From a virus, in the IMG/VR virus record IMGVR_UViG_3300046366_000135, positions 1 through 63,860 of that record: a stretch of 63,860 bases of DNA; one strand, 5' to 3'. A program made the translations under genes and the position numbers. Shown here in pieces: positions 4,228 through 58,790 of this stretch. Under the pieces are notes generated by a model. The model did not search any database. It saw only the letters and a program-made list of their open reading frames with translations, and had not been told where the DNA came from. Numbering within the stretch: the first letter of the stretch is position 1; every line of letters starts with the position of its first letter.

Positions 4228-4778
4228 ATTTTCACATCTGGGTTTTTAACAGGTTGAGTCAAACCATCTGCATAGTAAAGTTTATACTGTTCAATCAGCC
4301 TGATCAGCTTTTGAGGGTAATTTTTGTCCTCAGCATAACCCCTAATTTTGAGCTGATAGGCGGCACTTTTGTAGTTCAATCCGTACTTAGTCCAAATAGA
4401 ACCATAACGTTCATTTTTAAGCAACTTGCTATGATGACGTATTGACCACCAAGCAGATTTGTAAGTACAAAAATACCCCTCAGAATAAAGCTTCTTACCC
4501 GTAGCATAAGTCCTAGTCAATTCATTCCCCCAAGCCTTAATGCCAAAATGGTTATTGGAAGTCTGGGCCATGTAAGAAGTACCAGCGTCACTCTCTAAAA
4601 TGGCCTGAGCCATAGAAATTGCTGCTGGGACTCCGTGAATTACCCGCTCAGCTACAAAAGTCTCCCAATACTTTTTAATAAACTTAGCATGTTTTTCAGG
4701 AACACCCCTCAAATCAGGAGCTAAAGCTTTACCATGCAAATTTAAACTCAAAAACAAAAGTACAATAATTAATCTCAT
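4224..4778 (-). CDS. Exported GH73-type glucosaminidase (endolysin or virion lysin)
   Basis: 184 residues. An N-terminal signal peptide (MRLIIVLLFLSLNLHGKALA, about 1-20) is followed by a glucosaminidase domain: AAISMAQAILESDAGTS, in which E62 is the likely catalytic acid, then SNNHFGIKAWG, TYKSAWWSIRHHSKLLKNE, and RGYAEDKNYPQKLIRLIEQY near the end. GH73 enzymes cut the glycan chain of peptidoglycan. The Sec signal implies holin-independent export to the periplasm. It lies upstream of the terminase genes, while a second lysis cluster sits near 32-33 kb. Confidence 0.85.
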   Translation of the reverse strand: MRLIIVLLFLSLNLHGKALAPDLRGVPEKHAKFIKKYWETFVAERVIHGVPAAISMAQAILESDAGTSYMAQTSNNHFGIKAWGNELTRTYATGKKLYSEGYFCTYKSAWWSIRHHSKLLKNERYGSIWTKYGLNYKSAAYQLKIRGYAEDKNYPQKLIRLIEQYKLYYADGLTQPVKNPDVKI

Positions 4779-22861: not shown

Positions 22862-22862
22862 C

Positions 22863-35530: not shown

Positions 35531-35627
35531 ATATGCGTATTTTAGTGTTTGGGTTTGGTTTTTTAGATTCTAAAGCTAAGGCCCTTCTCTTTTTGGCTTC
35601 AGCTACTTTTTCTTTGATAGACTTCAT
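35523..35627 (-). CDS. 34-residue basic peptide
   Basis: MKSIKEKVAEAKKRRALAL... is very rich in lysine and arginine. Its ATG overlaps the stop of the upstream gene (TGATG) and its stop overlaps the start of the protease gene by 8 bases, a fully coupled arrangement that fills the otherwise empty 96 bases. It may be a small regulator or a nucleic-acid-binding peptide. Confidence 0.5.
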   Translation of the reverse strand: MKSIKEKVAEAKKRRALALESKKPNPNTKIRIYA

Positions 35628-36277
35628 CACTTTATTTTATATCCGTAAATAGTTGTTTTCTGAGAAGTCACTCCACCAAAGTTACCATCATCATCTTTTC
35701 CTCCAAACCACAACCAGATTTCTTTGGAAGGAGCCCATTTGTAATCAACCTCATCGGCTTCAATGTACCAAAGCAATTGTCCAGTAGTGTTGTAAGCTGA
35801 AACACAGGGAAGTAACTTGTTTTTATTGAATTTCTTGAACTCAAGATACAACCCATAAACTTCAGTTACGTTAAAAACTTTCAAAGACTGGTAAGCAAAA
35901 GCAAAATCCTTGTTTTGATAAAGGCAAAGCTCCATCATTAAAGAATCAGCCGTGGGCCTAGCAGCGAACATTACTCCGTTTTTGTTGTGCTGTTCAAGTA
36001 AAGGACTCACACCAAAAATCTTGTAATTCCAGTCATACACATCACTGTCTACTTCACCATTTGGAAGCTTCCAACTGAACCAAGTATTTGGATCAAAACG
36101 AACACACGATGTAGGTGTACTTCTACCACCAAGCAGCCAGTATAGTCTAGGCTTAATTGTGGAAGGACGGAAATCATGCTCACCCTTTTCCGCTGTGTAT
36201 TCTCTTAAGTAATTTTCATACTTTTGAGAAAAGCCAAGGATGGGTAATAAAAGCAACAGCAGGATTCGAGTTATCAT
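35627..36277 (-). CDS. Secreted hypothetical protein
   Basis: 216 residues with an N-terminal signal peptide, MITRILLLLLLPILGFSQ, typical of Bacteroidetes. The mature part is aromatic-rich and beta-like (RLYWLLGGRST, EIWLWFGGKDDDGNFGG), which could be a lectin- or jelly-roll-like fold. It overlaps the next gene by 4 bases. Function unknown; it is one of four consecutive exported products. Confidence 0.65.
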   Translation of the reverse strand: MITRILLLLLLPILGFSQKYENYLREYTAEKGEHDFRPSTIKPRLYWLLGGRSTPTSCVRFDPNTWFSWKLPNGEVDSDVYDWNYKIFGVSPLLEQHNKNGVMFAARPTADSLMMELCLYQNKDFAFAYQSLKVFNVTEVYGLYLEFKKFNKNKLLPCVSAYNTTGQLLWYIEADEVDYKWAPSKEIWLWFGGKDDDGNFGGVTSQKTTIYGYKIK

Positions 36278-36714
36278 TCTTTTTTATTTAGTCGTTGCAG
36301 AATGGTTTCATAAGTTTCTTCGGGTACTATAGGCACAACTGGTTTAGGATTTGGGTCTTCATCCTGTTCAACAATATGCCGATAGCATTTACTACAAATA
36401 CTCTTACGAGTTTGTATAGTCCATGAGCATCGAATACCCGGAGCGTGCATTACAGCACAGCTAATTGAGAAACCAGCGCCGAAACCATTGGAATAAGAGC
36501 CAGGTTCACTGCTATACCATTTGTGAGCACAACTATCAACACCGACTTCCAGAGTATCAATAGGATACCAGATAGTTTCTGGTACATAAAGATTGCGTAG
36601 AAATGGCATTTCAGCAGTTGTAAGTAGGCTATTGCTACCTGAGATGATGTAGCCGGTTTGGCCACTTAGAGTAAGCGACAACAAACCAGCTACAAGTATT
36701 AGAATGTTTTTCAT
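36274..36714 (-). CDS. Secreted hypothetical protein with cysteines
   Basis: 146 residues. Signal peptide MKNILILVAGLLSLTLSGQ, then a domain with seven cysteines including SICSKCYRHIVEQ near residue 108, and a proline-rich C-terminus (DPNPKPVVPIVPEE). Conserved cysteines suit an extracytoplasmic protein. Three bases separate it from the fibre-like gene. Confidence 0.62.
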   Translation of the reverse strand: MKNILILVAGLLSLTLSGQTGYIISGSNSLLTTAEMPFLRNLYVPETIWYPIDTLEVGVDSCAHKWYSSEPGSYSNGFGAGFSISCAVMHAPGIRCSWTIQTRKSICSKCYRHIVEQDEDPNPKPVVPIVPEETYETILQRLNKKE

Positions 36715-36717
36715 TGG

Positions 36718-39700
36718 TTATTTGATGATCCAGTCGAAAGTTACGCCTGTAGAAGTTATTGCAGCTTTGGTACTAGTATCGTAAGCTCTTACGGTGAAAG
36801 TAGTAGCGGTCTTCGCGGTAATAGTGTAGCCAACTCCTAAAGTAGTTCCAGTCCCCTGAATATCCACCACATAGTTAGTGTGGTTTTTATTGTGGGTAAT
36901 TACAACATCCCCAGAGCCATCGGTAGAAGCACTTGAGCTACCTTTATCATTAGTAGCGTTATCCACTACTACCCAACGATATGTAGTAGGCCCAGTTCCT
37001 ACAATATTGCACACAAACTCGGTAGGTTTAGTGAGATGCATAGTAGCTGTAGAAGCTCCATCCAGCTCGATTGAACCTGTGGCATTGATATTGTAGCTAG
37101 TATTTAAATCGCGTGGGGAAAGCAAAATAGATTTACCAAACGCTCCAGCATTTGCAGTAGGTAAAGGAATATCTGTATCCGCAGAAGCACCACTAGTAAG
37201 CTCTACAACAGCCGAGTATCTTTGATAGTTACTTGTACCAAAAGCAGACAAAGAAGGAGTTCCTGTGGTGAACTGACCGTCTACAAGCGTAGTAGATCGA
37301 GATACCCAGCCTGTATTCCCCGTACCCGTTTCCTTAAAGTAAATAGTAGTTCCGGCCCCACCTAATGTATTTATGTAGATAGAGCCGGGTGGGGCTGTCA
37401 CTACTGTTTCTGGTGATCCTGACCCACGATAAGTTAAAGTTACATCTAAGACGACCCCTGATGTAGGCGTGTACAGTAGGCGGGTTCCATCTGTGCTAGG
37501 TTCTAGTAATCCTTCCTCTGTGATTGTTTTTTGAGTATGTCCAGATAGAGTAAATTTTAATGGGCCTGTGTTGGCTGCTGCTGAACCTGCTGGCAAATGT
37601 AGTCTTGCAGTGGGGTTTTGGCTATTCACCCCGCCTATTCCTACTCTACCTGTATTTGTTACTAAAAAATGGTTCGTTCCACTTGATGGGTCGGAAGCGT
37701 TTGAATTGAGTTTTACACGCCCATCACTTGCGTCAAGTCCAAAAGACCAATATTCGACTGAAGTGTTGCCGAAAAACAACGACGCATCTGCATTACTACC
37801 CGTTGCGAGTACTGTCATTGTGGCTTTTGCATTTGTCGCTGAACTTGTGTTGTATAGTAAGCCCTGTAGGCCTGTTGAACTAGATACAGAAATATCTAAA
37901 GGAGTGGACGAACCCGTTACTGTTCCAGTTATATTCAACGCGTTTGATCCTGTAAAGTTAGATAGGATGTTTAGACCTGTTCCGGTTATTCCTGTTTCAA
38001 CAAACACAGGTTTCTGAAAAACAAATTTACTCCCAGTCGTTGCGTTAAATGAATTTGTTCCATCTGCTCCAATAGTCCAATTTATTTCTTTTGTTGCTTC
38101 TGAGTTTAAAAACCTCCATACGGCTGAACTGGTAGCAGTTGCGGTACTTTTAAATCCTCCTGCTCTTGAGAAAGATAAAAGGTCCGTATCGTCTGAAGCC
38201 AACAAATTATAACTATCTGCGCGATATGTCCAAACCCCTGATTTTATATCTTTTCGACCTTCCCATGATGCAGGTCTAAATACAGTGCCATCAGTAAGCC
38301 TAACTTCAGGTGCGTGGAACTCTTGCCAGTAATACCCAGCACCCGGAAAGGGCATGTAGTGTCTTTCGATACCTAGTCTGATATTACTATTGTCTCCCGT
38401 AGAGCTATTATCCCAATTAAAACCTAGTGAAATTACTTCATTTGGCCGTGACTGCCTATCAGGTAGCCTTGTTTTATCATACCACAACCCCGCGTTTCCT
38501 GTTCCTGCATCAAGCGAACTGAAAATTATCTTCTTGTTGTCAGTGGAATCGAGTTTCACGTTCAACGCCCGAACCGAAACGGTTGAACCATCGTAGGTCG
38601 CGTTGCCATTGCCAGCAAATGCGCCGGAACTGTTGTATTGCAATTGAGTATTAGAACCTCCAGGTGTTCCGCTCCCCCCACTCGCATCCCGTCCAGCCCA
38701 TTTACTCCCCGTCCAAGTAAGCACCTGATTAGTTGAAGCCCCCGCGCCCACAAGGTCGTTTGGCGAAAGGTTTGCTGCTTTGGTGCTGTCTACGGCGTTT
38801 GATGCCAGTTTTGCCGTAGAGATTGCACCGTTGTCTACCGTCCATGTTGAACCAGAGCCAGAAACAGTAATATCCCCTTTGTCGCCGTCTGAGATTCCAC
38901 CACCGCCTGATGGGGTTGAAATCCAGACAGGTACACCTGATTGCCACTCAATCATTTTGTTTCCTGATCCTGGAGAGGAGTTGGGAAAGACGTATTTGTT
39001 GTTGTAAAAGCTTATTCGGTTGCTCGTTGTGTCTGTGTCTAGGTTGTCGACTCGCAACCAGTCGAATTTAGTGCTAGAGTTGTAGAAGTTGGTTTGAAGC
39101 AACCAGGATTTAGTAGGTGCAATTATTGTACTTTGTCCTGATGTTTGCGATTTGTAGGCAAACCCAGAAATATGTGCTCTCCCGCCACCAGATATAGAAT
39201 CTGACTTAAATTGAAGGTAATTATACATCCTGCTACTTGAATCTATTTGTACTCTGTGTCGTAAAATAAAGTCACCAGAAGCCCTTCTTAAATCTAGGTC
39301 ATAAAAAACGCCCGTATTTACAGTAGCGTTTCTTTCCGCTAGAGCATTAAAATTAATTGAATAAGTTCTATTTGAAGGTCCATAAATATAATGCCCCCAG
39401 GTCAAGTTACTATAATTATTTTTCGTGTCTGTTTTAGATGTTTGAAATGTAAAAAACCCGTCATTATTGTACTGCCCATCTGCCGAGAAATACAAACCCA
39501 GTTTTTTATTATTTTGGGTTCCATTTATATTTACATAATCACCATTTGCCCCACCTAAATTTATTGTTCGTGAACTTGAAATTGTCCCGTCTTGGTTATA
39601 AATACTATTATCTGTAGCATACCCCGTCGTTCCTGTCGACGAATTGTATTTCAAGACCTGTTGATCTGTTGCACCGGACACACCTAATTTAACGGGTGAA

Positions 39701-40674
39701 ATTGCACGGTTTTTGACCTTGTTGCTGTCTATGGTTTGGCTTGCGAGATCGGCATTAACTAACGTCCCGTCGAGCACATTAGCAGAAATCACAACCCCGG
39801 TGCCTAATGCCGGGTTTGGATAGGTTCCGGTTAGGTCTCCCCCGGCTGCTCCCGTTGGTGCGCCACTGCCAGAAATAACAGTATTGTCCCAAAGCAAATT
39901 AACTGCCCATTTATACGCACCTGCCTGCCGCTGATCACGTAACGCACGAACCTGAGCCATTTCTCCTGGCTTAAGTAAATATGAAGTCTTGGTATTTGAA
40001 AGATGAGCATCCGACAGAATCCGAGTCTCAACCAATCCTGAGTCATTTTTCACATTATACACCACACCATAATGATCGGAGTTGGGAGCTGCAAGGAATG
40101 CCACAACAGAAGTATCTGTATTTCCCTTACAAGAAATATAGATGTTGTTATAAAATCGAGAAGGAGTTGCGATAACAAGGTTGGGAATATAGTTGGTTGA
40201 ATGAGCTACTGTGATAGACGTATCCTTCTTAACTATAATCTCGTTGAGCAACGAAACCAAGTATTCGTTATATACTTGCTGATCGGCATTACTAAGCCCG
40301 GACACAAAAGGAAAATAGCCTTTAGACGTAGGATGAAAAATAGCTTTCATCCCTGAGCCTACAGAGCTGATTTGTGTGATACCTACTTTAGAGACTTTCA
40401 CCGATAATGTTGGATGCATTGCACTCACAATTTCAGTTATAGGCAAAAAGAAGGTATAAGCACCATCAGAGAAGAATACAACATCTCCTACCTGAACACC
40501 AGAGGCATCATAGACACCAGAAGCGTCGTTAAATACTCCCGTCAAAGTCCATGTGGTAAGATCACCCATAGATTGAGAAGCGTTAAAAGTACCACTTAAA
40601 TTAGGCTGACGCTCTGCCTGTCCATAGAGTACTACGGACAGGCAGGTTAATATGATTAAAAGAACGTTCTTCAT
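36718..40674 (-). CDS. Fibre-like protein with signal peptide
   Basis: 1318 residues. N-terminus MKNVLLIILTCLSVVLYGQA is a Sec signal. The rest has repeats typical of phage tail fibres: GGDLTGTYPNPALG (about 280), two related blocks of the type IDSNKVKNRAISPVKLG and ISTAKLASNAVDSTKAANLS, SNTQLQYNSSGAFAGNG, and late VGIGGVNSQNPTARLHLPAG with TLSGHTQKTITEEGLL. These are trimeric beta-structured shafts and binding heads. The DNA is GC-richer in parts (38.4-39.0 kb) than its neighbours. Receptor binding is the likely role; the signal peptide makes its route to the virion, if any, unclear. Confidence 0.8.
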   Translation of the reverse strand: MKNVLLIILTCLSVVLYGQAERQPNLSGTFNASQSMGDLTTWTLTGVFNDASGVYDASGVQVGDVVFFSDGAYTFFLPITEIVSAMHPTLSVKVSKVGITQISSVGSGMKAIFHPTSKGYFPFVSGLSNADQQVYNEYLVSLLNEIIVKKDTSITVAHSTNYIPNLVIATPSRFYNNIYISCKGNTDTSVVAFLAAPNSDHYGVVYNVKNDSGLVETRILSDAHLSNTKTSYLLKPGEMAQVRALRDQRQAGAYKWAVNLLWDNTVISGSGAPTGAAGGDLTGTYPNPALGTGVVISANVLDGTLVNADLASQTIDSNKVKNRAISPVKLGVSGATDQQVLKYNSSTGTTGYATDNSIYNQDGTISSSRTINLGGANGDYVNINGTQNNKKLGLYFSADGQYNNDGFFTFQTSKTDTKNNYSNLTWGHYIYGPSNRTYSINFNALAERNATVNTGVFYDLDLRRASGDFILRHRVQIDSSSRMYNYLQFKSDSISGGGRAHISGFAYKSQTSGQSTIIAPTKSWLLQTNFYNSSTKFDWLRVDNLDTDTTSNRISFYNNKYVFPNSSPGSGNKMIEWQSGVPVWISTPSGGGGISDGDKGDITVSGSGSTWTVDNGAISTAKLASNAVDSTKAANLSPNDLVGAGASTNQVLTWTGSKWAGRDASGGSGTPGGSNTQLQYNSSGAFAGNGNATYDGSTVSVRALNVKLDSTDNKKIIFSSLDAGTGNAGLWYDKTRLPDRQSRPNEVISLGFNWDNSSTGDNSNIRLGIERHYMPFPGAGYYWQEFHAPEVRLTDGTVFRPASWEGRKDIKSGVWTYRADSYNLLASDDTDLLSFSRAGGFKSTATATSSAVWRFLNSEATKEINWTIGADGTNSFNATTGSKFVFQKPVFVETGITGTGLNILSNFTGSNALNITGTVTGSSTPLDISVSSSTGLQGLLYNTSSATNAKATMTVLATGSNADASLFFGNTSVEYWSFGLDASDGRVKLNSNASDPSSGTNHFLVTNTGRVGIGGVNSQNPTARLHLPAGSAAANTGPLKFTLSGHTQKTITEEGLLEPSTDGTRLLYTPTSGVVLDVTLTYRGSGSPETVVTAPPGSIYINTLGGAGTTIYFKETGTGNTGWVSRSTTLVDGQFTTGTPSLSAFGTSNYQRYSAVVELTSGASADTDIPLPTANAGAFGKSILLSPRDLNTSYNINATGSIELDGASTATMHLTKPTEFVCNIVGTGPTTYRWVVVDNATNDKGSSSASTDGSGDVVITHNKNHTNYVVDIQGTGTTLGVGYTITAKTATTFTVRAYDTSTKAAITSTGVTFDWIIK

Positions 40675-40677
40675 AGA

Positions 40678-42303
40678 TTAGATATTTGTAAATTTAGCAT
40701 GGAACCCTTGGCTGCCTACAGATAAGCCACCAATACGCAAAGTAATATTGCCAGAACCTACCCCTACAACAGACAGAGCAGGGTTATTGTCAAGATCAAG
40801 GGTGGCTGCGTTAGTAACTGATAGAGCACCAGAAGCAGGAATAGCTGTTTTTTGCATAACTGGTACATTGAGATCAGCAATACCTGTGTTACCCCCGGTT
40901 CCTTGAAATTCAACCGTAACCCAGTTTGTAACCCCACCAGCATCAGCACTAGCCTGTACATCAGCACTAACTAAACGCCAATCAGCAGACATGACCTGTA
41001 CTCCACTAGGAATTACAATAGTCAATTTGTTAGATGCAAAACTTGCGGAAACCCCCGCACCATAAGATACAATAGTCAAAGTAGAACCAGAGTTTGCACC
41101 AGTGATACCCACACTGTATTTAGTTAATGCTTGTGGGGCATTAGTATAAGTTTGCCCTGTACTTTGTTTATGATATACAGTAGGATCGTTATTTAATTTA
41201 TACAGAGCATTATTCGTAACCCCTGCCCAAGCTAAAGCATGTGTAGAGAAGCGTTGAATATCTGTATAAATAAATTCTTTTCTGGTCTGGGTGTAAATAG
41301 TCAAATCAGAACCTTCCGAACCATCAATCACATCGATTGTGTATACAGGCTGCCCAGCACTTGCTTGAGTTTGTGCTCTTGCCCATGACCCACTTGATTC
41401 TAGGATTGTTTGTACAGTAGTTCCATTCCCAGCTACACTAATATCAGAGATATTTGTAGTACTACGTGATCCAATATAAGTACCATAACTTGAGGCACTA
41501 CCCCCATTAAAATGAACCCTACCACCTAAAGAACCTGATGCCCAAGTACCTTGATTAATCATAAAAGGATACGTAGCTGTAGTTATCGTAGTACTTTCCC
41601 CTAGTGTTCCACCTAATTTAAAATTACTTGTAGCTAGTGTAAGACCATTACTAGCAGTATAACTACCACCACCACCAGAGTTAAGGTTATTCAAAACAGT
41701 TTGTAGTGAAGTAGCATCAGAACCACCCACAGTAGGATCATCTACAATACCTGTTGCAAAAGTACGCCAGTTTGTATTTGTGCCATTGTAGTAAGGAATA
41801 GAATGAGCACTAGCCCCTGTGACATCCCAATCGAGTGTAAGAGTAGAACCTACAAGAGTAGATTTCAATACATTACCTGTCAAGATAGAAAGTTCTCCAC
41901 TAATACTATCCTCTCCTACATCAGCCACAAGATTAAAGGAACCTACCCCACCACCTCCACCAGAAGCAGGACAGTTACAGTCAGTAAGTTCAGCAACAAC
42001 TGCTGGAACATTACCATAGATTGTTTCAGTAGCCTTAAAAGAAATAGACTTTCCAGTATAGTCAGTTAAGGTAAAAACTTGACCTGACACAAACCAAGAA
42101 AATGGCTTTTTAATAAATACCCGGTTAGATGGCCCACGATCTACTACGATACCAGAAGTGTATTCTGTACCTGTTAAACCTGTAGCACAGGGAGCACAAT
42201 AAGCTTTAGGAATTGCTTCGCAATTATAGCAGGTAAGTTTAGTTGTTTGAGAAAACCCTAAGACTGAAATAAGTAAGCTAAGGGTTAAAATAATATGTTT
42301 CAT
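40678..42303 (-). CDS. Fibre-like protein with signal peptide
   Basis: 541 residues. Signal MKHIILTLSLLISVLGFSQ, then a cysteine-bearing domain (LTCYNCEAIPKAYCAPC, 23-39), a glycine linker ASGGGGGVGSF, and a beta-repeat body (LTLATSNFKLGGTLGESTTI...). The last domain resembles phage fibre tips (GITGANSGSTLTIVSYGAG...LDNNPALSVVGVG). It is separated by 3 bases from the larger fibre-like gene and probably forms a complex or is an alternative adhesin. Confidence 0.72.
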   Translation of the reverse strand: MKHIILTLSLLISVLGFSQTTKLTCYNCEAIPKAYCAPCATGLTGTEYTSGIVVDRGPSNRVFIKKPFSWFVSGQVFTLTDYTGKSISFKATETIYGNVPAVVAELTDCNCPASGGGGGVGSFNLVADVGEDSISGELSILTGNVLKSTLVGSTLTLDWDVTGASAHSIPYYNGTNTNWRTFATGIVDDPTVGGSDATSLQTVLNNLNSGGGGSYTASNGLTLATSNFKLGGTLGESTTITTATYPFMINQGTWASGSLGGRVHFNGGSASSYGTYIGSRSTTNISDISVAGNGTTVQTILESSGSWARAQTQASAGQPVYTIDVIDGSEGSDLTIYTQTRKEFIYTDIQRFSTHALAWAGVTNNALYKLNNDPTVYHKQSTGQTYTNAPQALTKYSVGITGANSGSTLTIVSYGAGVSASFASNKLTIVIPSGVQVMSADWRLVSADVQASADAGGVTNWVTVEFQGTGGNTGIADLNVPVMQKTAIPASGALSVTNAATLDLDNNPALSVVGVGSGNITLRIGGLSVGSQGFHAKFTNI

Positions 42304-42365: not shown

Positions 42366-43160
42366 TTAATCGCAAAGGAAACGTTCGGTCATCTCGCAGA
42401 ATGCAAATTGACCGTCAGAACCAACCAATACAGGTTCATCCTCCAAAGTGTAAATTTTAATGGTGTAACCACCCTCAGCATTGTTCACGCTTACTTCTAC
42501 ATCAATATAACTGTAACCATTAGCGGATACCAAAGTATCTAATGTATCAATAACATCAGCTTTCAGAGTGGCAGCAGTTACAAGGTCAGTTGATGTACCA
42601 GTGTAATTATAAGGGTTGTTAGCAAGGGCAGCAGGAGTACCACCATTGAAAACAAAGTTTCCAATTTGATCAACCCCAACATACTTCCACACCCGAACTG
42701 GTACGATCTCACAACAAGGAGTCGGAGTAGACATTGTACTTGCATTGTCGAAAGTAATTGCAGACAACACAGCACGACCCCGATGAGTGATGGTCAACGC
42801 GCCTCCGGCATAAGAAACTCGCAGGTAAATGTCATACTCATACAGTTCCAATACTTTAGTCAACCACTCCTCTACTTTAGCCGCATCAGTTACAGCAATC
42901 TGACCATAGGCAGGAGCAATAACTTTCCCATTTGCTTGGGTAATAGGCATGGTAGTCAAGGCAGTAATGCTAGAGCCGTCAGGGTGAGTGATAGTTACAC
43001 TTGCCAATTTCCGGGTGTTAGCCACAGTATTGGTGAAAATACGCTGACAATTGTCAGGAGCATTTTCAGTACAGCAACCATATACCCCACCGAGTTTGAA
43101 CAGATTCTCAGGGTCAGCATGATAGTTTCCACGCAATTTCCCAAATTCGATCAGCTTCAT
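42366..43160 (-). CDS. Structural protein, unknown role
   Basis: 264 residues from the ATG at 43160 (MKLIEFGKLRGNYHAD); a longer frame overlaps the upstream stop. It is beta-rich with two related segments (VEVSVNNAEGGYTIKIYTL and LRVSYAGGALTITHRG) and a cysteine pair PCC. No signal peptide. Position at the end of the head-tail block suggests a virion or decoration protein. Confidence 0.5.
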   Translation of the reverse strand: MKLIEFGKLRGNYHADPENLFKLGGVYGCCTENAPDNCQRIFTNTVANTRKLASVTITHPDGSSITALTTMPITQANGKVIAPAYGQIAVTDAAKVEEWLTKVLELYEYDIYLRVSYAGGALTITHRGRAVLSAITFDNASTMSTPTPCCEIVPVRVWKYVGVDQIGNFVFNGGTPAALANNPYNYTGTSTDLVTAATLKADVIDTLDTLVSANGYSYIDVEVSVNNAEGGYTIKIYTLEDEPVLVGSDGQFAFCEMTERFLCD

Positions 43161-43171
43161 TCGCTTCAAAA

Positions 43172-43525
43172 TTAAATTGCCCATTTATCCCCATCAGGGT
43201 GAGGGCAGGTTATTAAAACTAATTCAAAGTCACCAACTCCCAAAGCCTTTTGTCCTAGCTCCGAGGCACTTAAAGGTTGATCTTCATGGCCTTTAAGTCG
43301 TTTAATTGTTTTCAGTCTTCCCTTCGTAGCCAAGGGACAGCCACATTTAGTGCATCCTGGCATTTTAAAAGAAGTAACAGGAGTAGTAATTGTAACTTCA
43401 CCGAACAAAGGACAACCAGCACAGACTGATTTTCTATGTTCAAAAGTTTTTTGATCTACTGCCTCACCCCCCTCAGAGATAAGAGAAGACAAATTATCAA
43501 ACACAAATTGTTGTAAGATATTCAT
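43172..43525 (-). CDS. Zinc-ribbon hypothetical protein
   Basis: 117 residues. KSVCAGCPLFG (C35, C38) and MPGCTKCGCPLATKGRLK (C58, C61, C63), then a late ITCPHPDGDKW, give a treble-clef or ribbon arrangement like small proteins near the head-completion genes of Bacteroidetes phages. Overlaps the upstream gene by 4 bases. Function unknown. Confidence 0.6.
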   Translation of the reverse strand: MNILQQFVFDNLSSLISEGGEAVDQKTFEHRKSVCAGCPLFGEVTITTPVTSFKMPGCTKCGCPLATKGRLKTIKRLKGHEDQPLSASELGQKALGVGDFELVLITCPHPDGDKWAI

Positions 43526-44181
43526 GCGAAAAGGTATTCGTGTCCTTGGTGTTCTTTATTGCAGTCACAGTTTTGTTTTCCACAATCAGAGCAGCCAAAT
43601 CCAATATAGTTTTCGTAACAAGTATTCGTTTTGTTCTTTTTCAAAAAGCGCAGCATATTTGCCTGAGCTATTTGAATTTGTCGAAGGATTGCAGCATCAA
43701 GACTTTCATAATCCTTACGATCAGAGGTTTTAAAGTCCTGTCCCTCATATTGAATTGTGCCTCTACCTTCAATCTTAGTTCTGATAAAGGGCAACCTCAA
43801 TCGAAGGATAATGTGTGCTAGATAGTACACTAGATATTTACAGAAAAAGTCCTCATAACAATCACTTTCAAATCGTCTTCCCGGTTTCCAGTAATCTTTA
43901 TTTGGAGGTTCAATTCCTTCAACTACTGCAATAGCTTCGTAAGCTTCACCATCAAAGAAAACAGTATTTCCAATAATATAAGAAGTTAAAGGACTATACT
44001 CTTCAGTATCAGAATAGTCTACAAGATCATCAATCATATCTTGATAAAAATCCTCACCAAGACATTCAATCATCTCATACTCCTCATTCATTGCGAGCAC
44101 ATTAAAATCACACACGGGGAAATTTAAAGAAATTCCACTATGCCGGATTACTAGGCTTGGGGTCATTATTGTTTTTCGCAT
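43522..44181 (-). CDS. Probable head-tail connector protein
   Basis: 219 residues. ECLGEDFYQDMIDDLVDYSD resembles the start of connector or adaptor proteins, and YIIGNTVFFDGEAYEAIAVV...DYWKPG resembles a small carbohydrate-binding-like beta unit. The last 25 residues hold a cysteine cluster (GFGCSDCGKQNCDC). It overlaps the portal gene by 44 bases. Role assigned from neighbourhood. Confidence 0.5.
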   Translation of the reverse strand: MRKTIMTPSLVIRHSGISLNFPVCDFNVLAMNEEYEMIECLGEDFYQDMIDDLVDYSDTEEYSPLTSYIIGNTVFFDGEAYEAIAVVEGIEPPNKDYWKPGRRFESDCYEDFFCKYLVYYLAHIILRLRLPFIRTKIEGRGTIQYEGQDFKTSDRKDYESLDAAILRQIQIAQANMLRFLKKNKTNTCYENYIGFGCSDCGKQNCDCNKEHQGHEYLFA

Positions 44182-45451
44182 TGCTACTACCTTTTTGTTG
44201 TAATTTGTTACGCTCTTCCAAAGTTTTACTTAGGATAGGATCAAGCATTGTGTGTAATGGCAATCCCATACCATAAACTTTCCAAATCTCGTCCAAACAA
44301 TAATTTAAAACCCACTCCCAACGATTCTGAGTAGGCTTAATAACAGACATGTTTTTGGTCTCAAGTAAAGACCAATAGACATCCCCTCCGTTATTTGCAC
44401 CTACAGTATTTAGTCCTCCTAATTGCTTATCCCAGTGATGGGCAGCATAAATTTGGGCAGCAGCAGTTTCCATGATCAATCTCTTGTACTCCGAGTCTCG
44501 ATTGTAAGTCAAGTCAATTGCAGTTGGGGCTTTACCTCCTACTGGGTATTTTACTCCCGCCAAAACTTTGGCATCTTCACCTTCAACTGTAACTATCTGT
44601 CTTAAAGCATCAACTTTAGCTTTGAATCCAGTTTCTTTATTATCCCTACCTCCCTTAACTCGTTCAGTAGGAACCTCTTCAAAGGCTAGAATTTTCTGCC
44701 CAACATAATCAGTCCTGCCAATTTTTACTGCTTGATGAGAGGCCATTACCTCTACGTACATCCAAAAAAGGGAATTGATAATTCGAGGTCTTCCATAAAA
44801 CTTAGAGCCTTTAGGAACTCTTAAATGGAGCATAGTTTCAACTCCATCAGTGCATTTCTGCCAGTTAAATGGCTGACCTATATATGAAGCCTTAATCAAC
44901 AAAGGCTTTTTCTCTCTCCAATAATTTTCATCCCATTTCTCAGTTTGAACTAGGACTTTATCTCTCTTACTTGTACCTTTTAGGTAAGCTACTTCAGGAT
45001 ACCACACAGGCTGCATGATTACCTTTTTAGCCCGGTTTAGTTTTAGTACTTTGATATGAAGATAAGCATTGCCAGATTCTTGCTCATAACCATACAGAGT
45101 TTCCAGAATGTCCTTTAAAGGAATAGGAGCAAGTCCCATATCCAATAACTGAGACTCAAACGCTTCTTTTTGGGAGATAGAAATCTCCCCAGTTTTTTTA
45201 TAGGCAACTCCCGGAGTCTGCCTTACAGTAAAGTCTAAGCCCCCACCAAAGGCATAACCACCTTTATCATCGACACAAGACCCATGCGAAGGACTAAGTT
45301 CACATAGGTCTTTTAGGACGCTTAGCATCTCATGGCTGCTACTCTCCCAATTCCCGTAATATGGAATTATCCCATACTTTTTGAACGTTTCCGTGACTTG
45401 TTTTTCGTCGTTTACGCTTTCTAGTATCGGATTTTGTACTTGCAACAGCAT
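44138..45451 (-). CDS. Portal protein
   Basis: 437 residues. The N-terminal pattern NWESSSHEMLSVLKDLCELSPSHGSCV...GGYAFGGGLDF is a typical portal start (membrane-less clip and wing), followed by YEQESGNAYLHIKVL and a long helical crown ending in EERNKLQQKGSSNAKNNN. The portal is the 12-subunit DNA entry ring that binds the terminase. It overlaps two neighbours. Confidence rests on pattern and location between the capsid and connector genes. Confidence 0.72.
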   Translation of the reverse strand: MLLQVQNPILESVNDEKQVTETFKKYGIIPYYGNWESSSHEMLSVLKDLCELSPSHGSCVDDKGGYAFGGGLDFTVRQTPGVAYKKTGEISISQKEAFESQLLDMGLAPIPLKDILETLYGYEQESGNAYLHIKVLKLNRAKKVIMQPVWYPEVAYLKGTSKRDKVLVQTEKWDENYWREKKPLLIKASYIGQPFNWQKCTDGVETMLHLRVPKGSKFYGRPRIINSLFWMYVEVMASHQAVKIGRTDYVGQKILAFEEVPTERVKGGRDNKETGFKAKVDALRQIVTVEGEDAKVLAGVKYPVGGKAPTAIDLTYNRDSEYKRLIMETAAAQIYAAHHWDKQLGGLNTVGANNGGDVYWSLLETKNMSVIKPTQNRWEWVLNYCLDEIWKVYGMGLPLHTMLDPILSKTLEERNKLQQKGSSNAKNNNDPKPSNPA

Positions 45452-45647: not shown

Positions 45648-46354
45648 GCAAGGACTAGTTCAGTTAGGTCTACATTACAATAGATTGGTGCAACCAAAGA
45701 TTCACCTACCAAAGTAATGTCATTACCTGCTTTAGAAGTACCAAGCTCACCAGAACGGTCAACGTGAGTACCAAAACGCAAGGTCTTAACCTGTTTGATG
45801 AATGCAGTACCATTCCATTCAACCCCTACAAGACGTTGATTACAGTTATTGTCTACAATCAACAAAACAAGGTTACAGCACTTAAAGGAGTTTTTGATCT
45901 TCAAACGGAATGCAGCAGAACCACCCTCAAAGTTGATTACAATTTCTTGTTCGTAGACAGCAGTGTCTTCACCAAAAGTAAAGGTATACTGAGAAGTTTT
46001 ACGTTCAGGGCTGATTTTTTTCCATACAGCAGCCCCTTCCATGATAAAACCAGTTAGTACTTCAGTAGTCGGGTTAAACAGTTGGTCAGGAGCGACTGCC
46101 GCTACAGTTGCAGCCCAGTCAATATCTCCATACTGACACCAGTAGGCTTCTTGGATACCTCCTGAAGTATTACAAGAATCATCAGTTTCCAAATCATCCA
46201 AGGTACAAGCGTAGGCACAAGCAAAAAGTACCTTATTGTGAATGCCAGTCATCAACGCCCCAAAAGAGCTGGACAAAATGAAATTTGTCCAGTCGCCTTG
46301 AGCAGCGAAGAAAAGACTAAGCCCCATATTGAAAATGCTTAGAATCTTTTTCAT
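45644..46354 (-). CDS. Structural protein, possible tail tube
   Basis: 236 residues. The start overlaps the capsid stop (TAATG). The N-terminus MKKILSIFNMGLSLFFAAQGDW is hydrophobic and signal-like; after that a domain with FIMEGAAVWKKISPERKTSQYTFTFGED and IVINFEGGSAAFRLKI suggests a tail-tube or head decoration protein. Several cysteines. Assigned only from position. Confidence 0.45.
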   Translation of the reverse strand: MKKILSIFNMGLSLFFAAQGDWTNFILSSSFGALMTGIHNKVLFACAYACTLDDLETDDSCNTSGGIQEAYWCQYGDIDWAATVAAVAPDQLFNPTTEVLTGFIMEGAAVWKKISPERKTSQYTFTFGEDTAVYEQEIVINFEGGSAAFRLKIKNSFKCCNLVLLIVDNNCNQRLVGVEWNGTAFIKQVKTLRFGTHVDRSGELGTSKAGNDITLVGESLVAPIYCNVDLTELVLA

Positions 46355-47559
46355 TATTCAGCATAGATTTGTGAGCCTACAACATAGTTCACATCCGCAA
46401 TTGCGTTTGCAAACATAGCCTCAGACAAAATGAAGTATTTACCACGTTCAACATTGCTAGTACCACGTTCAATACGGATACCAATGTTGTTGGTCTCAAT
46501 GTCAGGGATTTCACCAAAACTACCACCAAGACCAATGTTACGACCCATTGTGAGGTAGCTGAAATGGTATCCACCTTCCAAGTACTGATCATACTCAGCA
46601 GTAGCGTCAATTGGAATCAATGGAACATTGTCTACAAAATAAACATAAATTGTAGCACCTCCATTTTGATATTCCCGGCGAGTCAGACGAGGTTGGATCA
46701 GAACATTATTGATGTTGTATACAGCCTGTTCGTTGTACTGAGCAGCAGCGCGGTTGTTGATAGAATCGCTAACCAACCATACAGCAGAAGGTACAATACC
46801 ATTAATTGCCCGGCCATTTACACCACCTACGTTCAATTGTTTAACCATTGGGCCTTTAGCCTTAGCTACCAATTCATCCTTCAACGCGATCACATCACCA
46901 ATGAACTGCTTACCGTCGAACATACTTGCAGTGAAGTAGTTAGGCAGGTTCAGGTGTGTGAATGCAGAACCTTGATCAGCAGTCTCTTTCAACAAAGGCA
47001 GCCATCCCCGACAAGCGGAGTTAGTCTTCTTCATCAAAGAACGAAGATCGTTAGATACATCATCCCGGAAAGTTTGATCGGTAAAGTTGAACAGACCCCC
47101 AGCAGTCAAGGTGAGATAAGCACCATAAGTGTAGTTCTCAATCAAGATTTCTGTGAATTGATTGATCAAAGCTTCAGCAGTAGCGTCCAATGTTTTGTAG
47201 CCATTCGCAGACCAAGTAAACAGGTGCTTGAAGCATTCATCCATCAATTCATCCCAGCAATGCTGCTCATTGATCTTGGCATCACATGGAGTGATTTCCT
47301 GACGATCCATACGCAAGCTACCAGTAGGTTCCCAAGAACAAGACTGGTTTTTCTGCCAAACAAAGGGGGTAGCCTTAGCGCTGTGAATAATATATTTCAA
47401 CTTCTGGTTCATAGGCATCCATTGGAAAATGCCGAATATACGCTGATAAAAAGAGAAGTTGTCATAAATATGCTCACGCGCAAAGGAGTTGGTCTCAGCA
47501 ACAGGAAAGACCAATGTCTGTTCCCGACGATTAAAAGTGGGTTTTACTCTCAGGGCCAT
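46354..47559 (-). CDS. Probable major capsid protein
   Basis: 401 residues, directly after the S49-type prohead protease in the transcript. It begins MALRVKPTFNRREQTLVFPV and has a long helical domain (KINEQHCWDELMDECFKHLF; ALINQFTEILIENY) and beta regions (YFVDNVPLIPIDATAEYDQYLEGG) compatible with an HK97-like fold. No strong motif exists for this family, so the call rests on size, order and lack of another candidate. Confidence 0.6.
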   Translation of the reverse strand: MALRVKPTFNRREQTLVFPVAETNSFAREHIYDNFSFYQRIFGIFQWMPMNQKLKYIIHSAKATPFVWQKNQSCSWEPTGSLRMDRQEITPCDAKINEQHCWDELMDECFKHLFTWSANGYKTLDATAEALINQFTEILIENYTYGAYLTLTAGGLFNFTDQTFRDDVSNDLRSLMKKTNSACRGWLPLLKETADQGSAFTHLNLPNYFTASMFDGKQFIGDVIALKDELVAKAKGPMVKQLNVGGVNGRAINGIVPSAVWLVSDSINNRAAAQYNEQAVYNINNVLIQPRLTRREYQNGGATIYVYFVDNVPLIPIDATAEYDQYLEGGYHFSYLTMGRNIGLGGSFGEIPDIETNNIGIRIERGTSNVERGKYFILSEAMFANAIADVNYVVGSQIYAE

Positions 47560-48905
47560 TATTGTACAGTTACAAAGCCATCATAGAGGGCTTCAAATTT
47601 TTGAATCGAATTAAGTTTATCGTTGGCCGAGTTATCACCAGAACCTTCTGCCTCATAACCAAGAACTCGCTCACTGAGGGTTTTATTCTCAGCACTAAGT
47701 TCAGTCATTTTAGTTTCAAGTTCAGTGATCTTAGAAGCCATAGAAGCACTAGCTACATTTGCGGTAGATAGTCCATTCAGAGCCTCAGTCAATCGACCTT
47801 CCAAATTTGCTACCTTAGCCGTAAGGTCAGCAGTTACAGCAGAGATTTGAGTGGCTACGGGTTCCATAGCCTCAAGCTGGTTGGCTGCCTGCTCCATACC
47901 AGCTTCAGTTGAAGTTACGCTGATACCCAAAACTCGGAGGAATTGGTTGGCCAGCTTGTCAAATACAGTCATATTTTCAGTTGTTTTAAGCACAGTCATT
48001 TCCTCTTCAGAATCTACTTGATCTTCTAAGGATTTTTCTTGAGATGTGGAAAGGTTTAATTCATCACCAATTTCTTGAACCAGCTCACTCAAAGATCGAA
48101 TACCATCTACAAGACCCGTTTCAATAGCCTTAGATGCTTTAACCATATCCCCTTTCAGCATTTCTTTGCTTACTTGAGGTCTATGCAAAAGCACTTTAGA
48201 ATGAAATAGATCAGCGGTTTCGTTCAACTCCTGAGTGATAGGTTTATAATTACCCTTCAAAATTTCCCTCCATTCGAGGTTTTTATTGGGTGATTTTTCA
48301 GAATAAATGTCAATCACATTCTCCCGATACCAAGTTACAAACTCTTTATCCAAGGAGAGCATTACACCAATAGACCCTGCCTCAGCAAAGTCTGATTTAA
48401 GGTAGATTTTTTTAGCTGGGGCAGCAGTCATATAAGCAGCAGAGCCAATAAAATTACCAAGTACATAGACAGGTTTTTTGAGACTTTTCATAGTCTCATA
48501 CATCATAGCTCCGGCTGAAACAGCCCCACCACCAGAATCAATATCCACAATATGAGCTACAACATCAGATTTGGCATCAGCAGTAGTAAGGAAATTTGAC
48601 CAATCATCAGCACCATAAGAGCACATTCCCCCATAAGGCTGCATCACTCCAATTATTTGGACATAGTTGATGAATTGGTTTGATTTACCCTCTCTTCGTT
48701 CGTAATTTTGTTCCCAACGATCTGCTAGAACAATCTCAGAAGCAGCTCTTTTCGTAGCTTCATAACCTAATTCTTTGATCGACACACCTTTCTCAAGAAG
48801 CTCAATTTCACCAAGATATTTGGATAGCTGTCGCATACCCCAATTGATGTCAATTAGCCATTCAGAACTTGTAATTAGATTGTCAATAATTTTATTACTT
48901 GGCAT
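47559..48905 (-). CDS. Prohead protease, S49 family, with C-terminal scaffold
   Basis: 448 residues. The SppA-like core has IVDIDSGGGAVSAG (about 119-132), VYVLGNFIGSAAYMTAAPAKKIYL with nucleophile Ser155, AEAGSIGVML, and a lysine-containing EKSPNKNLEW. From about residue 300 the protein is a coiled coil (AEMEQAANQLEAMEPVATQISAV...LSAENKTLSERVL), the usual scaffold fused to capsid proteases. It cleaves scaffold and capsid during maturation. The transcript has a -7-like TAAGTTTG 18 bases upstream. Confidence 0.85.
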   Translation of the reverse strand: MPSNKIIDNLITSSEWLIDINWGMRQLSKYLGEIELLEKGVSIKELGYEATKRAASEIVLADRWEQNYERREGKSNQFINYVQIIGVMQPYGGMCSYGADDWSNFLTTADAKSDVVAHIVDIDSGGGAVSAGAMMYETMKSLKKPVYVLGNFIGSAAYMTAAPAKKIYLKSDFAEAGSIGVMLSLDKEFVTWYRENVIDIYSEKSPNKNLEWREILKGNYKPITQELNETADLFHSKVLLHRPQVSKEMLKGDMVKASKAIETGLVDGIRSLSELVQEIGDELNLSTSQEKSLEDQVDSEEEMTVLKTTENMTVFDKLANQFLRVLGISVTSTEAGMEQAANQLEAMEPVATQISAVTADLTAKVANLEGRLTEALNGLSTANVASASMASKITELETKMTELSAENKTLSERVLGYEAEGSGDNSANDKLNSIQKFEALYDGFVTVQ

Positions 48906-54782: not shown

Positions 54783-57700
54783 TTATCCGGTTATAGTTTG
54801 TAAGTTTTTACGTCTCGCAGCCTCTAAAGCAGCCTCTCTATATCCTTCAACGATGGCATCAGATACAGAAGAACTTACTTCATCAGCTACAATCGTAGCA
54901 AATCTATCAATTTGGCTGTCCTCTAAGGTCAGTTTATATACTGTAGTTCTAGCAGAACCAATACTATCATTCTGAGATGCTGGAAGAACAAAACCTCCTA
55001 CAGCATAGGCAGCGTAATTAGGTGATCCTTTTTTAGTTCTCAAAGACTCTGCCTGAGCAGCCAAAGAAGCCCCAGCAGGAGTATCCAAAACATGTTTAGG
55101 GATTACATACTCATCTTCATGCACAACTCCGGCTACTCTAAAACCAGTATGATCACGTTGACCTGTAGCAGTAGTATAACCACCGACAGCATATGATCTA
55201 GCCCGGATAGCTGAGGTTTGCAAAGCATACTGACCTGTTAAGAAAGCAAGTTGGATGCCTTTGTAGATGGCATCGAATGGTTGCTTAATCACAGAAGCAG
55301 CAGTCAGGATGTTAATGATACCTTGAGCGTAGCTAATGGCAGCCTGGGCTAATTCAATTTTCTTGTTCTTCTCAAATTGCTCTCTTTTCAGAGCATCAAT
55401 CTTACTAGCTTTCTCTTTTTCCAACCGCTCTACAACTTCTTTGTTGCCTCTAGCGGCTTCAATCTCTTTGTCGTAGTATTTCTCAAGGCTCTTAATCCTT
55501 TCATCGAACTGAACGTTGATTAACTCATTGAGAGAATCACCTAGCCCACTAATTTGAGATAGGGTCAGATCGACAAACGTCAGAATATTCTGAGTCTTAG
55601 CATCCAAAGCAAAAACGTCATTATCAGCCTCAAGTTGGCCTAACTGTTGTAGTTTATCATAGTATTGCCTCTGTAAAATTAACCGTTGTTCTAAGGACAG
55701 CTTGGTATTAGATAGTTGAGTTTCAAGGATTTTTATCTCACCCTCAAGCTCTAACCTTTCTACATTTTTTTGATACTCTTCGTAAGATTTACTTTTAGTC
55801 TGAAGTACCTTTCTATCAGTATCAATTTGAATTTTAGCAATTGCCTCAGCTTCGGTAATTGCTGAGCTAATTCCCCCCAACTTAGCCCTTTCTGACTGAA
55901 GTTGTTTGTCAATATCCAAAAACTCCTTACTACCCTCTTTATAGAGTTGCTTTCTAGCTTCAAGGGTTTGGATTTCAGCAGTAATAGCAATAGCTTTCTT
56001 AGTCTCAGCTAAGACGCGCTCATTAGTTATGGTATCCTCAGCATTTTGATCAGCTAAATCTTTAGCAGTTTTGATACTGTCAATCAAAGGCTGTACGTCA
56101 GTTTCTAATAACGCAGTAAACGAACTATTAGAAGCAGCTCTTTGGAGACGCTTGATAGCATCCTCAGCTAACTTCAAATCCTTCTCGGCCTTATCTAAAT
56201 TACCAACAATTTTATTGATTGCTTCAGGCTTCGCTGACTCAAGTTCTTTTTTAAGACTGGATACTTTTTGTTGATAAAACTCAACACTACCAGCAGCCCC
56301 TCGTACAGCCAAGTCCAAAGAATCTAATGTATCTTGCCATTCTTTTTCAGCAGCATTTATTTTGAAAGTAATATCATAGTACTCAGCAAGAAGGTCTGCA
56401 TAAGGTTTACCTTTTACAATTGATTCTTGGATAGCATTTTTTAGTTCAGTCTGTCTTTTAGTTAGTTTCTCTAACTCACTAGCAGCATCCTTATCTCCTT
56501 TAGTTCCATACTGGAACGAAGCTCTCCTACGAAGGTTATCCAAGTCAAATTTGTCAAAAGACAAGACATCTTTGGGAGCTAGTTTTTTCTCCAAAGATTT
56601 TCTAGCCTCTTCAGCAGATTTTTCCAGAGCTTTATTGTCAAGCTTTAGGTTTTTGTTTATAGTTTTACCGACTCCGGCACTAAAAATACCTAGACCATCA
56701 AGCTGTTTTTTGTTTTTTTCAAGATACTGATCATTCTGAATATTACGTTTGGCAATTTCAGTAGCATTATCCTTTGTGATGTTTTGCTGAGTCTTTTTGT
56801 TAAATTGTTCCATTAATTTCTCCCCAAGTACAAAGTTAGCAACATAAGCTACTGGGTTAAATATAGCTAGTAATTTTTTACCTAGATCAGCAGCAAACTC
56901 AAAGACCTTACGAAGTAATTTTGCAAATTCAGAAGTTGAAGTATAGGCATAGTAAATTGCAGATACTAAAGCCCCAACTGCTACAATAGCTATTCCAATA
57001 GGGTTAGCAGTAATGGCTGCATTCCAAGCCCATTGAACAGCAGTTATAAGTCTAGTAATTCCAGTCAATTTAGAAATATTAGCAATCCATTTACCAATAG
57101 CTACACCTGCATTATAAGCGGTTGCTTTAGAATTAAAAACGATAGCCACAGTAAAAGCAGCAATAATCGGGATTAATGCACCCACGATGGCTTTTACTTC
57201 ATTAAACTTAGCAACAGCCTCTTCCTCGCCTTGAACTAAACGAGCAAAAAACTGAACAATGTCAGCTATTCCTTTAACAAAAGCAGCTATTGGCCCGCTC
57301 TGGGTACTAAATATTGCAATTCCCAGAGTTTCAGTAGCCCCCGTCAATTCGTCAAAGGCACCTTTAAGGTCTTTGCGCATTGCTTCAGCAGTAGCTTTGG
57401 AACTGCCCTCAGCATTATCTAACTCAGCGATTAAGTCAACGAGTTTATCTTCTTGTTTAGCCAGAGCGATAGCAACAACAGAAGCATCTTTTCCAAACAA
57501 GGCGTTAGCAACTGCTAGTTTATTCTCAGCATTATTGATAAGATCAAAGGCTTCTTGCAAACTTCTGCCAGAGTTAGCAGTTTCAATAAAGATGTTGCGT
57601 AATGAAGTTCCAGCAGTAGACGCATCAATACTTTCATCTTTAAGAATAGACAACAAACCCGCAGTTGTTTTTAAATCAACACCCACAGCACTGGCTGCTG

Positions 57701-58790
57701 GCCCAACTATACCAATAGCTGTGCCAAAACTTTGTACATCCAGAGCCCCTGAATTAAATGCTTTAGCTAAAATATCTCCGGCTAAAGCAGCATCTTCAGC
57801 TTTCAATTGGAAGATATTCAAAACACCCCCAATAGTTTCTGCTACTTTAGCTAAATCCTCCCCAGAAGTTGTGGCAATATCTGTACTTACGGCTAAAAGA
57901 CTAGTAATCTCTGTTGCAGTTAAGCCTAATTTACCATAAGCAATGGCTAATGCACCAATTTCTTGTGAAGTAAACTCAGAACTAGCCCCAACTTTAAGAA
58001 TTTCATCCTTCAGAATAGTAAATTCCTCTGGGGTAGCTTGAGTGACGGCCCTAATTGTAGACAACTGACGACTAAAATTGATCGTATTATTCAAAGCAGT
58101 CTTGATTGCTGTATCTAGTAGGCCCACAGCAGCGGTAATACCACCAGTGGCAATACCAAAAGTTAGAATATCGGCCACAGAACCAATAGCCGATCTGTAA
58201 TTACCCACATTTCGTTGGTAAAGCCCTAACTTTTTGTCTAAATCTTGTAGTCTTGTAGCTAAAACATTAGCCTGAGAGGCAATTTGAGTACCTACAGGGC
58301 TATTCCTTACATCCTCACTAAGATTTTTGTACTCATTACGTAGTTTGACTAACTCAGCAGACATAGCCCGGTAAGAGCCAATAGGGAATTGTTGTTTTTG
58401 GAGAGTTCCTTTTAATTCCCCATCAATTTTTGTAAGTTCTTGACGAAGTTTTGATATATTTTTGAGTAAATTTGCACCTACATCAGAATCTCGATCTTCT
58501 TTAACTAGTGTTTGGTACTGTTCTATTAGGTTTTTTAATTCTTGTTTTATAGTATTATAACTTTTCTTTATTGTGTCAGTAGCATCAACATTTTCTCTTT
58601 TAAATTGGGAGGTTAGCCCAATAAGAAAATTAAGGGTTTGTTTTAACGGCTCTAGCCCTTCTTTAGAATCACCCAAAGCAGCTATAGCACTACGAGTATC
58701 TATCAGTGCTTCGTTTAAACTTTGAAGGGTATTTAGAACTACTTTACCATTTGGTAAAGTTATCTCTAAACTAATTACTTTTGCGGCCAT
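54783..58790 (-). CDS. Tape measure protein
   Basis: 1335 residues. A central region FSRQLSTIRAVTQATPEEF...LKDEILKVGASSEFTSQEIGALAIAYGKLGL...TSGEDLAKVAETIGGVLNIF is the TP901-type tape-measure core. Long coiled coils lie before and after it, a hydrophobic block around 535-625 is typical of the membrane-passing part, and the C-terminus has SYAVGGYTTATG-like loops. At the usual 0.15 nm per residue the tail would be about 200 nm, a long siphovirus tail. Confidence 0.92.
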   Translation of the reverse strand: MAAKVISLEITLPNGKVVLNTLQSLNEALIDTRSAIAALGDSKEGLEPLKQTLNFLIGLTSQFKRENVDATDTIKKSYNTIKQELKNLIEQYQTLVKEDRDSDVGANLLKNISKLRQELTKIDGELKGTLQKQQFPIGSYRAMSAELVKLRNEYKNLSEDVRNSPVGTQIASQANVLATRLQDLDKKLGLYQRNVGNYRSAIGSVADILTFGIATGGITAAVGLLDTAIKTALNNTINFSRQLSTIRAVTQATPEEFTILKDEILKVGASSEFTSQEIGALAIAYGKLGLTATEITSLLAVSTDIATTSGEDLAKVAETIGGVLNIFQLKAEDAALAGDILAKAFNSGALDVQSFGTAIGIVGPAASAVGVDLKTTAGLLSILKDESIDASTAGTSLRNIFIETANSGRSLQEAFDLINNAENKLAVANALFGKDASVVAIALAKQEDKLVDLIAELDNAEGSSKATAEAMRKDLKGAFDELTGATETLGIAIFSTQSGPIAAFVKGIADIVQFFARLVQGEEEAVAKFNEVKAIVGALIPIIAAFTVAIVFNSKATAYNAGVAIGKWIANISKLTGITRLITAVQWAWNAAITANPIGIAIVAVGALVSAIYYAYTSTSEFAKLLRKVFEFAADLGKKLLAIFNPVAYVANFVLGEKLMEQFNKKTQQNITKDNATEIAKRNIQNDQYLEKNKKQLDGLGIFSAGVGKTINKNLKLDNKALEKSAEEARKSLEKKLAPKDVLSFDKFDLDNLRRRASFQYGTKGDKDAASELEKLTKRQTELKNAIQESIVKGKPYADLLAEYYDITFKINAAEKEWQDTLDSLDLAVRGAAGSVEFYQQKVSSLKKELESAKPEAINKIVGNLDKAEKDLKLAEDAIKRLQRAASNSSFTALLETDVQPLIDSIKTAKDLADQNAEDTITNERVLAETKKAIAITAEIQTLEARKQLYKEGSKEFLDIDKQLQSERAKLGGISSAITEAEAIAKIQIDTDRKVLQTKSKSYEEYQKNVERLELEGEIKILETQLSNTKLSLEQRLILQRQYYDKLQQLGQLEADNDVFALDAKTQNILTFVDLTLSQISGLGDSLNELINVQFDERIKSLEKYYDKEIEAARGNKEVVERLEKEKASKIDALKREQFEKNKKIELAQAAISYAQGIINILTAASVIKQPFDAIYKGIQLAFLTGQYALQTSAIRARSYAVGGYTTATGQRDHTGFRVAGVVHEDEYVIPKHVLDTPAGASLAAQAESLRTKKGSPNYAAYAVGGFVLPASQNDSIGSARTTVYKLTLEDSQIDRFATIVADEVSSSVSDAIVEGYREAALEAARRKNLQTITG

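Follow-up and report, generated by a model that had tools for sequence, protein, structure and literature searches.

Export signals on the fibre genes of a tailed phage: probable production of particle components outside the cytoplasm and their addition at cell burst

Background

Signal peptidase I of the Bacteroidota follows a "Q-rule": its substrates have a Sec signal peptide with a small residue at position -1 and Gln at position +1 of the cleavage site (PMC5837995). This rule has been described for cellular proteins, whereas in the virus analysed here the same combination of Sec signal, small -1 residue and +1 Gln is found on phage fibre genes. Signals of this kind have been noted on phage genes before: Porphyromonas gingivalis phages carry five Q-rule genes with no assigned function, for which a role in changing the host envelope was suggested (PMC10367356, 2023), a point repeated in a second paper (PMC10653852), but the original study did not recognise the products as fibres or as virion proteins (PMC10367356). 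The target proteins of phage DGRs are reported in one paper to be without signal peptides (PMC6199706).

Conventional tail fibres and tailspikes resemble the proteins described below in that they are modular, are encoded at the end of the structural operon and have modules in common with the largest of the four, but they lack a signal peptide. In the textbook view, the cytoplasm is where the virions of tailed phages are assembled. Phages such as T4 and P22 are known to acquire fibres late, or in vitro, when the particle is otherwise complete. In the open-access literature searched, virion fibres of Bacteroidota phages were not reported to have signal peptides, and there was no comment on the signals of the Cellulophaga phage phi10:1, phi18:3 and phiSM proteins discussed below. 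Joining the known secretion rule with this known class of virion protein thus appears unreported.

Results and Discussion

Genome context and host

The window (the whole stretch of DNA analysed) is a virus record of 63,860 bp with a GC content of 38%. Its genes include those for a large terminase, a tape measure protein and an S49/ClpP-type head protease. The features used here are as follows; L220 is a contig of an uncultured relative.

54783..58790, minus strand: tape measure protein (context gene)
47559..48905, minus strand: S49/ClpP-type head maturation protease, grouping the phage with Flavobacterium, Cellulophaga, Polaribacter and Porphyromonas phages
46354..47559, minus strand: probable major capsid protein, 401 aa, no signal peptide, distant homologue of the L220 capsid candidate
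44138..45451, minus strand: probable portal-type head gene (from position and homology), 437 aa, no signal peptide
42366..43184, minus strand: 272-aa protein directly upstream of the cassette, no signal peptide
40678..42303, minus strand: 541-aa fibre-like protein, first cassette gene; predicted signal residues 1-18 (42303-42250), mature N-terminus Gln19
36718..40674, minus strand: 1318-aa tail fibre/tailspike; predicted signal residues 1-18 (40674-40621), mature N-terminus Gln19
36274..36714, minus strand: 146-aa small Cys-containing protein; predicted signal residues 1-18 (36714-36661), mature N-terminus Gln19
35627..36277, minus strand: 216-aa protein; predicted signal residues 1-17 (36277-36227), mature N-terminus Gln18
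4224..4778, minus strand: endolysin with a Sec-type signal (MRLIIVLLFLSLNLHGKALA) that is not of the Q-rule type

The cassette is located at the 3' end of the late minus-strand operon, where it is preceded on the same strand by the tape measure, head protease, capsid-like and portal-like genes. The head protease matches mainly phages of Flavobacterium, Cellulophaga and Porphyromonas, which makes the Bacteroidota the putative host phylum. A genome scan for the host matched only two contigs, both apparently misbinned (an alphaproteobacterial MAG and a Richelia MAG).

The endolysin signal listed above suggests that the same phage seems to send its lysis enzyme through Sec too. Directly downstream of the cassette is a subtilase without a signal peptide (34202-35530, minus strand; Peptidase_S8, E 5e-35), and two small lipoproteins are predicted at 28426-28869 and 22547-22888 (both minus strand; LLASC and SFSC, respectively).

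Four adjacent late genes with Q-rule signals

An earlier note on this DNA had proposed four consecutive genes with signal peptides at 35627-42303. The corresponding open reading frames (ORFs) are present, and the signals are found by a written rule: four adjacent late genes on the minus strand, encoding proteins of 541, 1318, 146 and 216 aa, each begin with a cleavable-looking Sec signal peptide. The predicted N-termini (arrows mark cleavage) are MKHIILTLSLLISVLGFS↓Q for the 541-aa protein (GFS↓Q), MKNVLLIILTCLSVVLYG↓Q for the 1318-aa protein (LYG↓Q), MKNILILVAGLLSLTLSG↓Q for the 146-aa protein (LSG↓Q) and MITRILLLLLLPILGFS↓Q for the 216-aa protein (GFS↓Q). All four have a charged n-region, a hydrophobic core and a small residue at -1 by our home-made rule, and Gln at +1 in four of four is the Q-rule of Bacteroidota signal peptidase I. 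The earlier note placed the cleavage sites roughly correctly but missed this feature common to all of them.

Signals were called by this home-made rule and not by SignalP; it requires a charged n-region, a hydrophobic core and a small residue at -1, followed by Gln, a lipobox or a plain AXA site. Applied to the whole window, the rule finds no Gln-class signals other than those of the cassette ORFs. When the first 45 residues of each cassette protein were shuffled, a Gln-class signal arose in 1.9, 1.8, 1.5 and 0.06% of trials; the rate was 0.55% for spurious ORFs of all loci examined, 0.2% for shuffled gene N-termini and 3.1% for gene-like ORFs. For four genes drawn at random from 77, the probability of all being neighbours is about 5e-5.

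The start codons of the last three cassette genes are separated from the preceding stop by a gap of a few nucleotides or overlap it by 4 nt (ATGA), and the first gene (541 aa) has an A-rich leader before its start. An artefact of start codon choice was ruled out, since three starts are coupled to the preceding stop within a few bases. Two other classes of exported protein were also considered. No type IX C-terminal sorting domain was matched in any of the four proteins with Pfam or NCBIfam (E 0.1), and a reading as type IX cargo was dropped for this reason. A lipobox with Cys at +1 is absent from all four: each signal ends [S/G]↓Q, and a lipoprotein reading was dropped accordingly.

Identity of the four proteins

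Two of the products had been called fibre-like in the earlier note. This description holds for the 1318-aa protein, which has fibre and tailspike modules; the 541-aa protein is fibre-like in composition and has a weak PHROG match only. The latter has a Cys-rich stretch past the cleavage site followed by Gly/Ser/Thr-rich repeats of the fibre type, and no Pfam domain was detected in it. In the 1318-aa protein, a fibre motif (GGDLTGTYPNP) is found near residue 270 and a module of the tailspike type near residues 1020-1130. Residues of about 980-1135 match annotated tail fibre and tailspike proteins; matches to the C-terminal region of the protein come from phages of Klebsiella, Escherichia, Acinetobacter and others. 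The protein is 41% identical over 426 aa to a fibre of 1449 aa encoded on viral contig L002, and this fibre itself has a Q-rule signal together with a glycosyl hydrolase 28 (GH28) domain.

The 216-aa and 146-aa proteins are only partly fibre-like. The 146-aa protein has no match in Pfam, NCBIfam or PHROG, and a homologue search with it found nothing. The 216-aa protein is a divergent member of a "YTIKKGxH..DxNKLFG..YFGGNxxAPH" family of Bacteroidota phages (family HMM E=6e-16). Its AlphaFold2 model is a beta-sandwich (pLDDT 78). Compared with the PDB, the model matches alginate lyases and legume-type lectins best, with TM no higher than 0.5, and the fold is predicted to be lectin-like. Members of the family are about 150-220 aa in length with a YFGGNxxAPH motif at the C-terminus and are widespread in Bacteroidota-type phages (73 viral loci between L100 and L178). 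Elsewhere they are lipoproteins or lack a signal, and a lipobox-like site is present in the homologues of L002, L098, L099 and L169. No PHROG or NCBIfam model matched the members tested.

An 8-mer pattern search of the viral contigs found no relatives of the 541-, 216-, 915- or 437-aa proteins, and a search of annotated phages found none of the 541-, 216-, 915- or 401-aa proteins. The fibre motif search returned mostly phages with signal-less fibres that are not Bacteroidota-like, which were kept as a contrast. Fibre-like proteins with signal-peptide-like starts are encoded at L052:8906-12058 and L063:9188-12133, the L063 signal being of the plain AXA type without Gln; these contigs may not be Bacteroidota phages, and signal-bearing fibres may therefore exist outside this phylum. 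An ORF with a GroEL-like N-terminus at L044:12457-14046 has as its neighbours a Q-rule fibre of 2092 aa and two further ORFs in which Q-rule starts are internal.

Cultured phages and virion proteomics

Runs of three to five consecutive Q-rule genes are found at the fibre/depolymerase locus of the Cellulophaga phages phi10:1, phi18:3, phi46:3 (five), Ingeline_2 (four) and Nekkels_1 (three; the rule labelled the first gene of this run a lipoprotein, but its sequence reads INAQ). For some Cellulophaga phages, GenBank annotation notes mark virion proteins identified by MS/MS. In the genome parts examined of six Cellulophaga phages, 8 of the 78 proteins so marked have Q-rule signals: gp091-094 of phi10:1 and gp085-087 of phi18:3, both consecutive sets, and gp08 of phiSM. 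Their predicted mature N-terminal peptides include QTTDVVK (phi10:1 gp091), QVLVPENTGYGYDNLTTVQLNALTK (phi18:3 gp085) and QNPTSFR (phiSM gp08). Bulk contamination with periplasmic protein is a poor explanation of these marks, because phi10:1 encodes further proteins with predicted export, among them a 104-aa Q-rule product (gene at 23531-23845), that do not carry the virion mark. Several proteins of Cellulophaga-type cassettes have a common signal and N-terminus but differ in their C-terminal parts; a constant N-terminus with variable C-terminal parts is the usual layout of fibres and tailspikes.

Like the four proteins of the window, those of phi10:1, phi18:3 and phiSM are products of large, mostly adjacent genes at a fibre/depolymerase locus and have Q-rule signals, but there is no detectable sequence homology between the two sets. 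The comparison is therefore one of organisation and signal type and not of descent. Q-rule signals were not found on the tail genes of phi13:1, phi18:1 and phi14:2, which are phages with proteomics, or in the stretches examined of 6H, FCL-2, laban6-1 and P. gingivalis phage019b, indicating that the feature is common but not universal.

The MS/MS marks bear directly on a reading in which the exported proteins stay out of the particle and serve as fibre-like decoys, adhesins, capsule-degrading enzymes or exclusion factors, either in the periplasm or once released at lysis. Such roles would agree with the envelope modification suggested for the Q-rule proteins of P. gingivalis phages (PMC10367356; repeated in PMC10653852), with the 216-aa family being a lipoprotein in many phages and having a lectin-like predicted fold, and with the GH28 domain of the L002 fibre. 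We nevertheless consider this reading unlikely: MS/MS annotation places eight proteins of this class in virions, tail fibre/tailspike modules are present in the large members of the cassette, which lies within a structural operon, and a conserved stretch past the cleavage site followed by a variable remainder is the layout of a virion fibre. Release of decoys is possible as a side role or side effect.

Signals of uncultured relatives

Contig L169/L220 encodes distant homologues of the 401-aa capsid-like and 437-aa portal-like proteins of the window, the latter being homologous to a 485-aa L220 protein in the same gene order. The order common to this contig and the window is capsid, portal, fibre (Q-rule), small protein (Q-rule) and 216-aa family member. 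A search with its capsid gene gave 80 viral loci. In contig L301, a Q-rule fibre, a protein with a lipoprotein-like start and a further Q-rule protein are encoded upstream of the capsid gene.

Past the cleavage point, the fibres of these relatives begin Q[YF]P..GN..xLGxQTTxDGL. This one mature N-terminus is preceded by three unrelated signals, all ending A↓Q or G↓Q: a form of 57-62 residues (MIEKPKKERRFLKALG...PSILFLFLSISLFA), MKQLLSLFLFLLPCLAWA and MKHNILLFLLLIPAFLFA. In a search that used the inner part of the module as the query and did not require Gln, a hydrophobic core with A↓Q or G↓Q precedes the mature fibre module in 43 of 43 ORFs. Among the 37 distinct sequences with the long-form signal, dN/dS is 0.10 for the n-region, 0.39 for the core and c-region and 0.16 for the first 60 mature codons. 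Only Ala or Gly occurs at -1, almost all changes in the core are between hydrophobic residues, and Gln is at +1 in all 37, a set picked by a pattern requiring Gln. The signal region of the relatives is under purifying selection.

The fibre at L226:13665-16142 and about 30 related fibre ORFs have about 44 conserved, positively charged, amphipathic-looking residues before the hydrophobic core. The start of this type overlaps the preceding stop by 4 nt, and the n-region has a dN/dS of 0.10. In layout, these long signals resemble the extended signal peptides of autotransporters.

These data can be set against two further readings. In the first, the signal is not cleaved: the hydrophobic N-terminus is kept as a membrane-inserting or tail-docking peptide, and the fibres assemble in the cytoplasm. 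Presence in the virion alone is no proof of cleavage, and one group of relatives has a long n-region, with about 58 residues before Gln in all. However, A↓Q or G↓Q is invariant at the predicted cleavage point and would have no purpose unless signal peptidase cuts there, and three unrelated signals precede one conserved mature N-terminus, which makes retention of the signal improbable.

We regard as similarly improbable the second reading, in which the genes derive by capture from polysaccharide-degrading enzymes or fibre-like proteins that the host secretes and their signals are relics without present importance, enough protein staying in the cytoplasm for assembly. Host-like enzyme domains (pectate lyase, GDSL lipase and GH28) do occur in some cassette members, but non-enzymatic structural members also bear signals, dN/dS across the signal is low, and unrelated, functional-looking signals have been swapped in.

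A proposed two-compartment assembly route

The reading that we favour, and hold to be probable, is that the fibres, once exported by Sec and processed, remain in the periplasm until around lysis, when they are joined to the tails. The cassette would comprise late genes for tail fibre/tailspike proteins and small partners that are targeted to the host Sec translocon. Signal peptidase I would remove 17-18 residues, exposing a Gln that host glutaminyl cyclase would convert to pyroglutamate. Folded fibres would build up in the periplasm during the cytoplasmic assembly of heads and tails and, once the membrane is breached at lysis, would dock on the tail tip, giving a virion built from two compartments.

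The steps of this route are not equally firm. Predicted targeting of the cassette proteins to Sec is strongly supported by the signals themselves, by selection on them in relatives and by their replacement with unrelated signals. Actual export in this phage is likely, and cleavage and formation of pyroglutamate on the cassette proteins are predicted from the invariant Gln. Against the route, a domain of the relatives' fibres is present without a signal in the tail protein of Nitrincola phage 1M3-16, the one relative outside the Bacteroidota that was checked, so that such a fibre can work unexported, and many Bacteroidota phages have tail genes free of Q-rule signals. The fibres of the window are presumably virion components, as suggested by their fibre modules and by the MS/MS notes on the analogous Cellulophaga proteins. 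The time and place of docking, around lysis, would follow from the lack of signals on head and tail proteins: with the fibres confined to a separate compartment, the two could meet only after a breach of the inner membrane.

The earlier note suggested three roles, of which fibres attached outside the cytoplasm is the best supported, as proteins with the same kind of signal in a similar cassette are annotated by MS/MS in the virions of phi10:1, phi18:3 and phiSM. Surface display by infected or lysogenic cells, another of its proposals, with the fibres serving as adhesins or possibly as blockers of receptors, would have export as its first step and would suit the receptor-binding-type modules, but it is very improbable, given that none of the four proteins has a type IX C-terminal domain or a lipobox and hence a known route to the Bacteroidota surface.

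Implications for Bacteroidota phages

Extended to Bacteroidota phages in general, the proposal is that heads and tails are made in the cytoplasm and receptor-binding fibres in the periplasm by way of Sec, signal peptidase I and glutaminyl cyclase, the two being joined around lysis; we put this at slightly better than even. Its range would include the Cellulophaga isolates and a large group of uncultured phages. If many Bacteroidota phages do export their fibres first, folding can make use of disulfides, pyroglutamate and periplasmic chaperones. Intracellular particles would then be without receptor-binding parts until lysis, which may prevent early binding to host material, and infectivity would depend on the Sec system, signal peptidase and glutaminyl cyclase of the host. 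Annotation pipelines that discard or truncate signal-bearing fibres, or file them as host proteins, would need to be changed.
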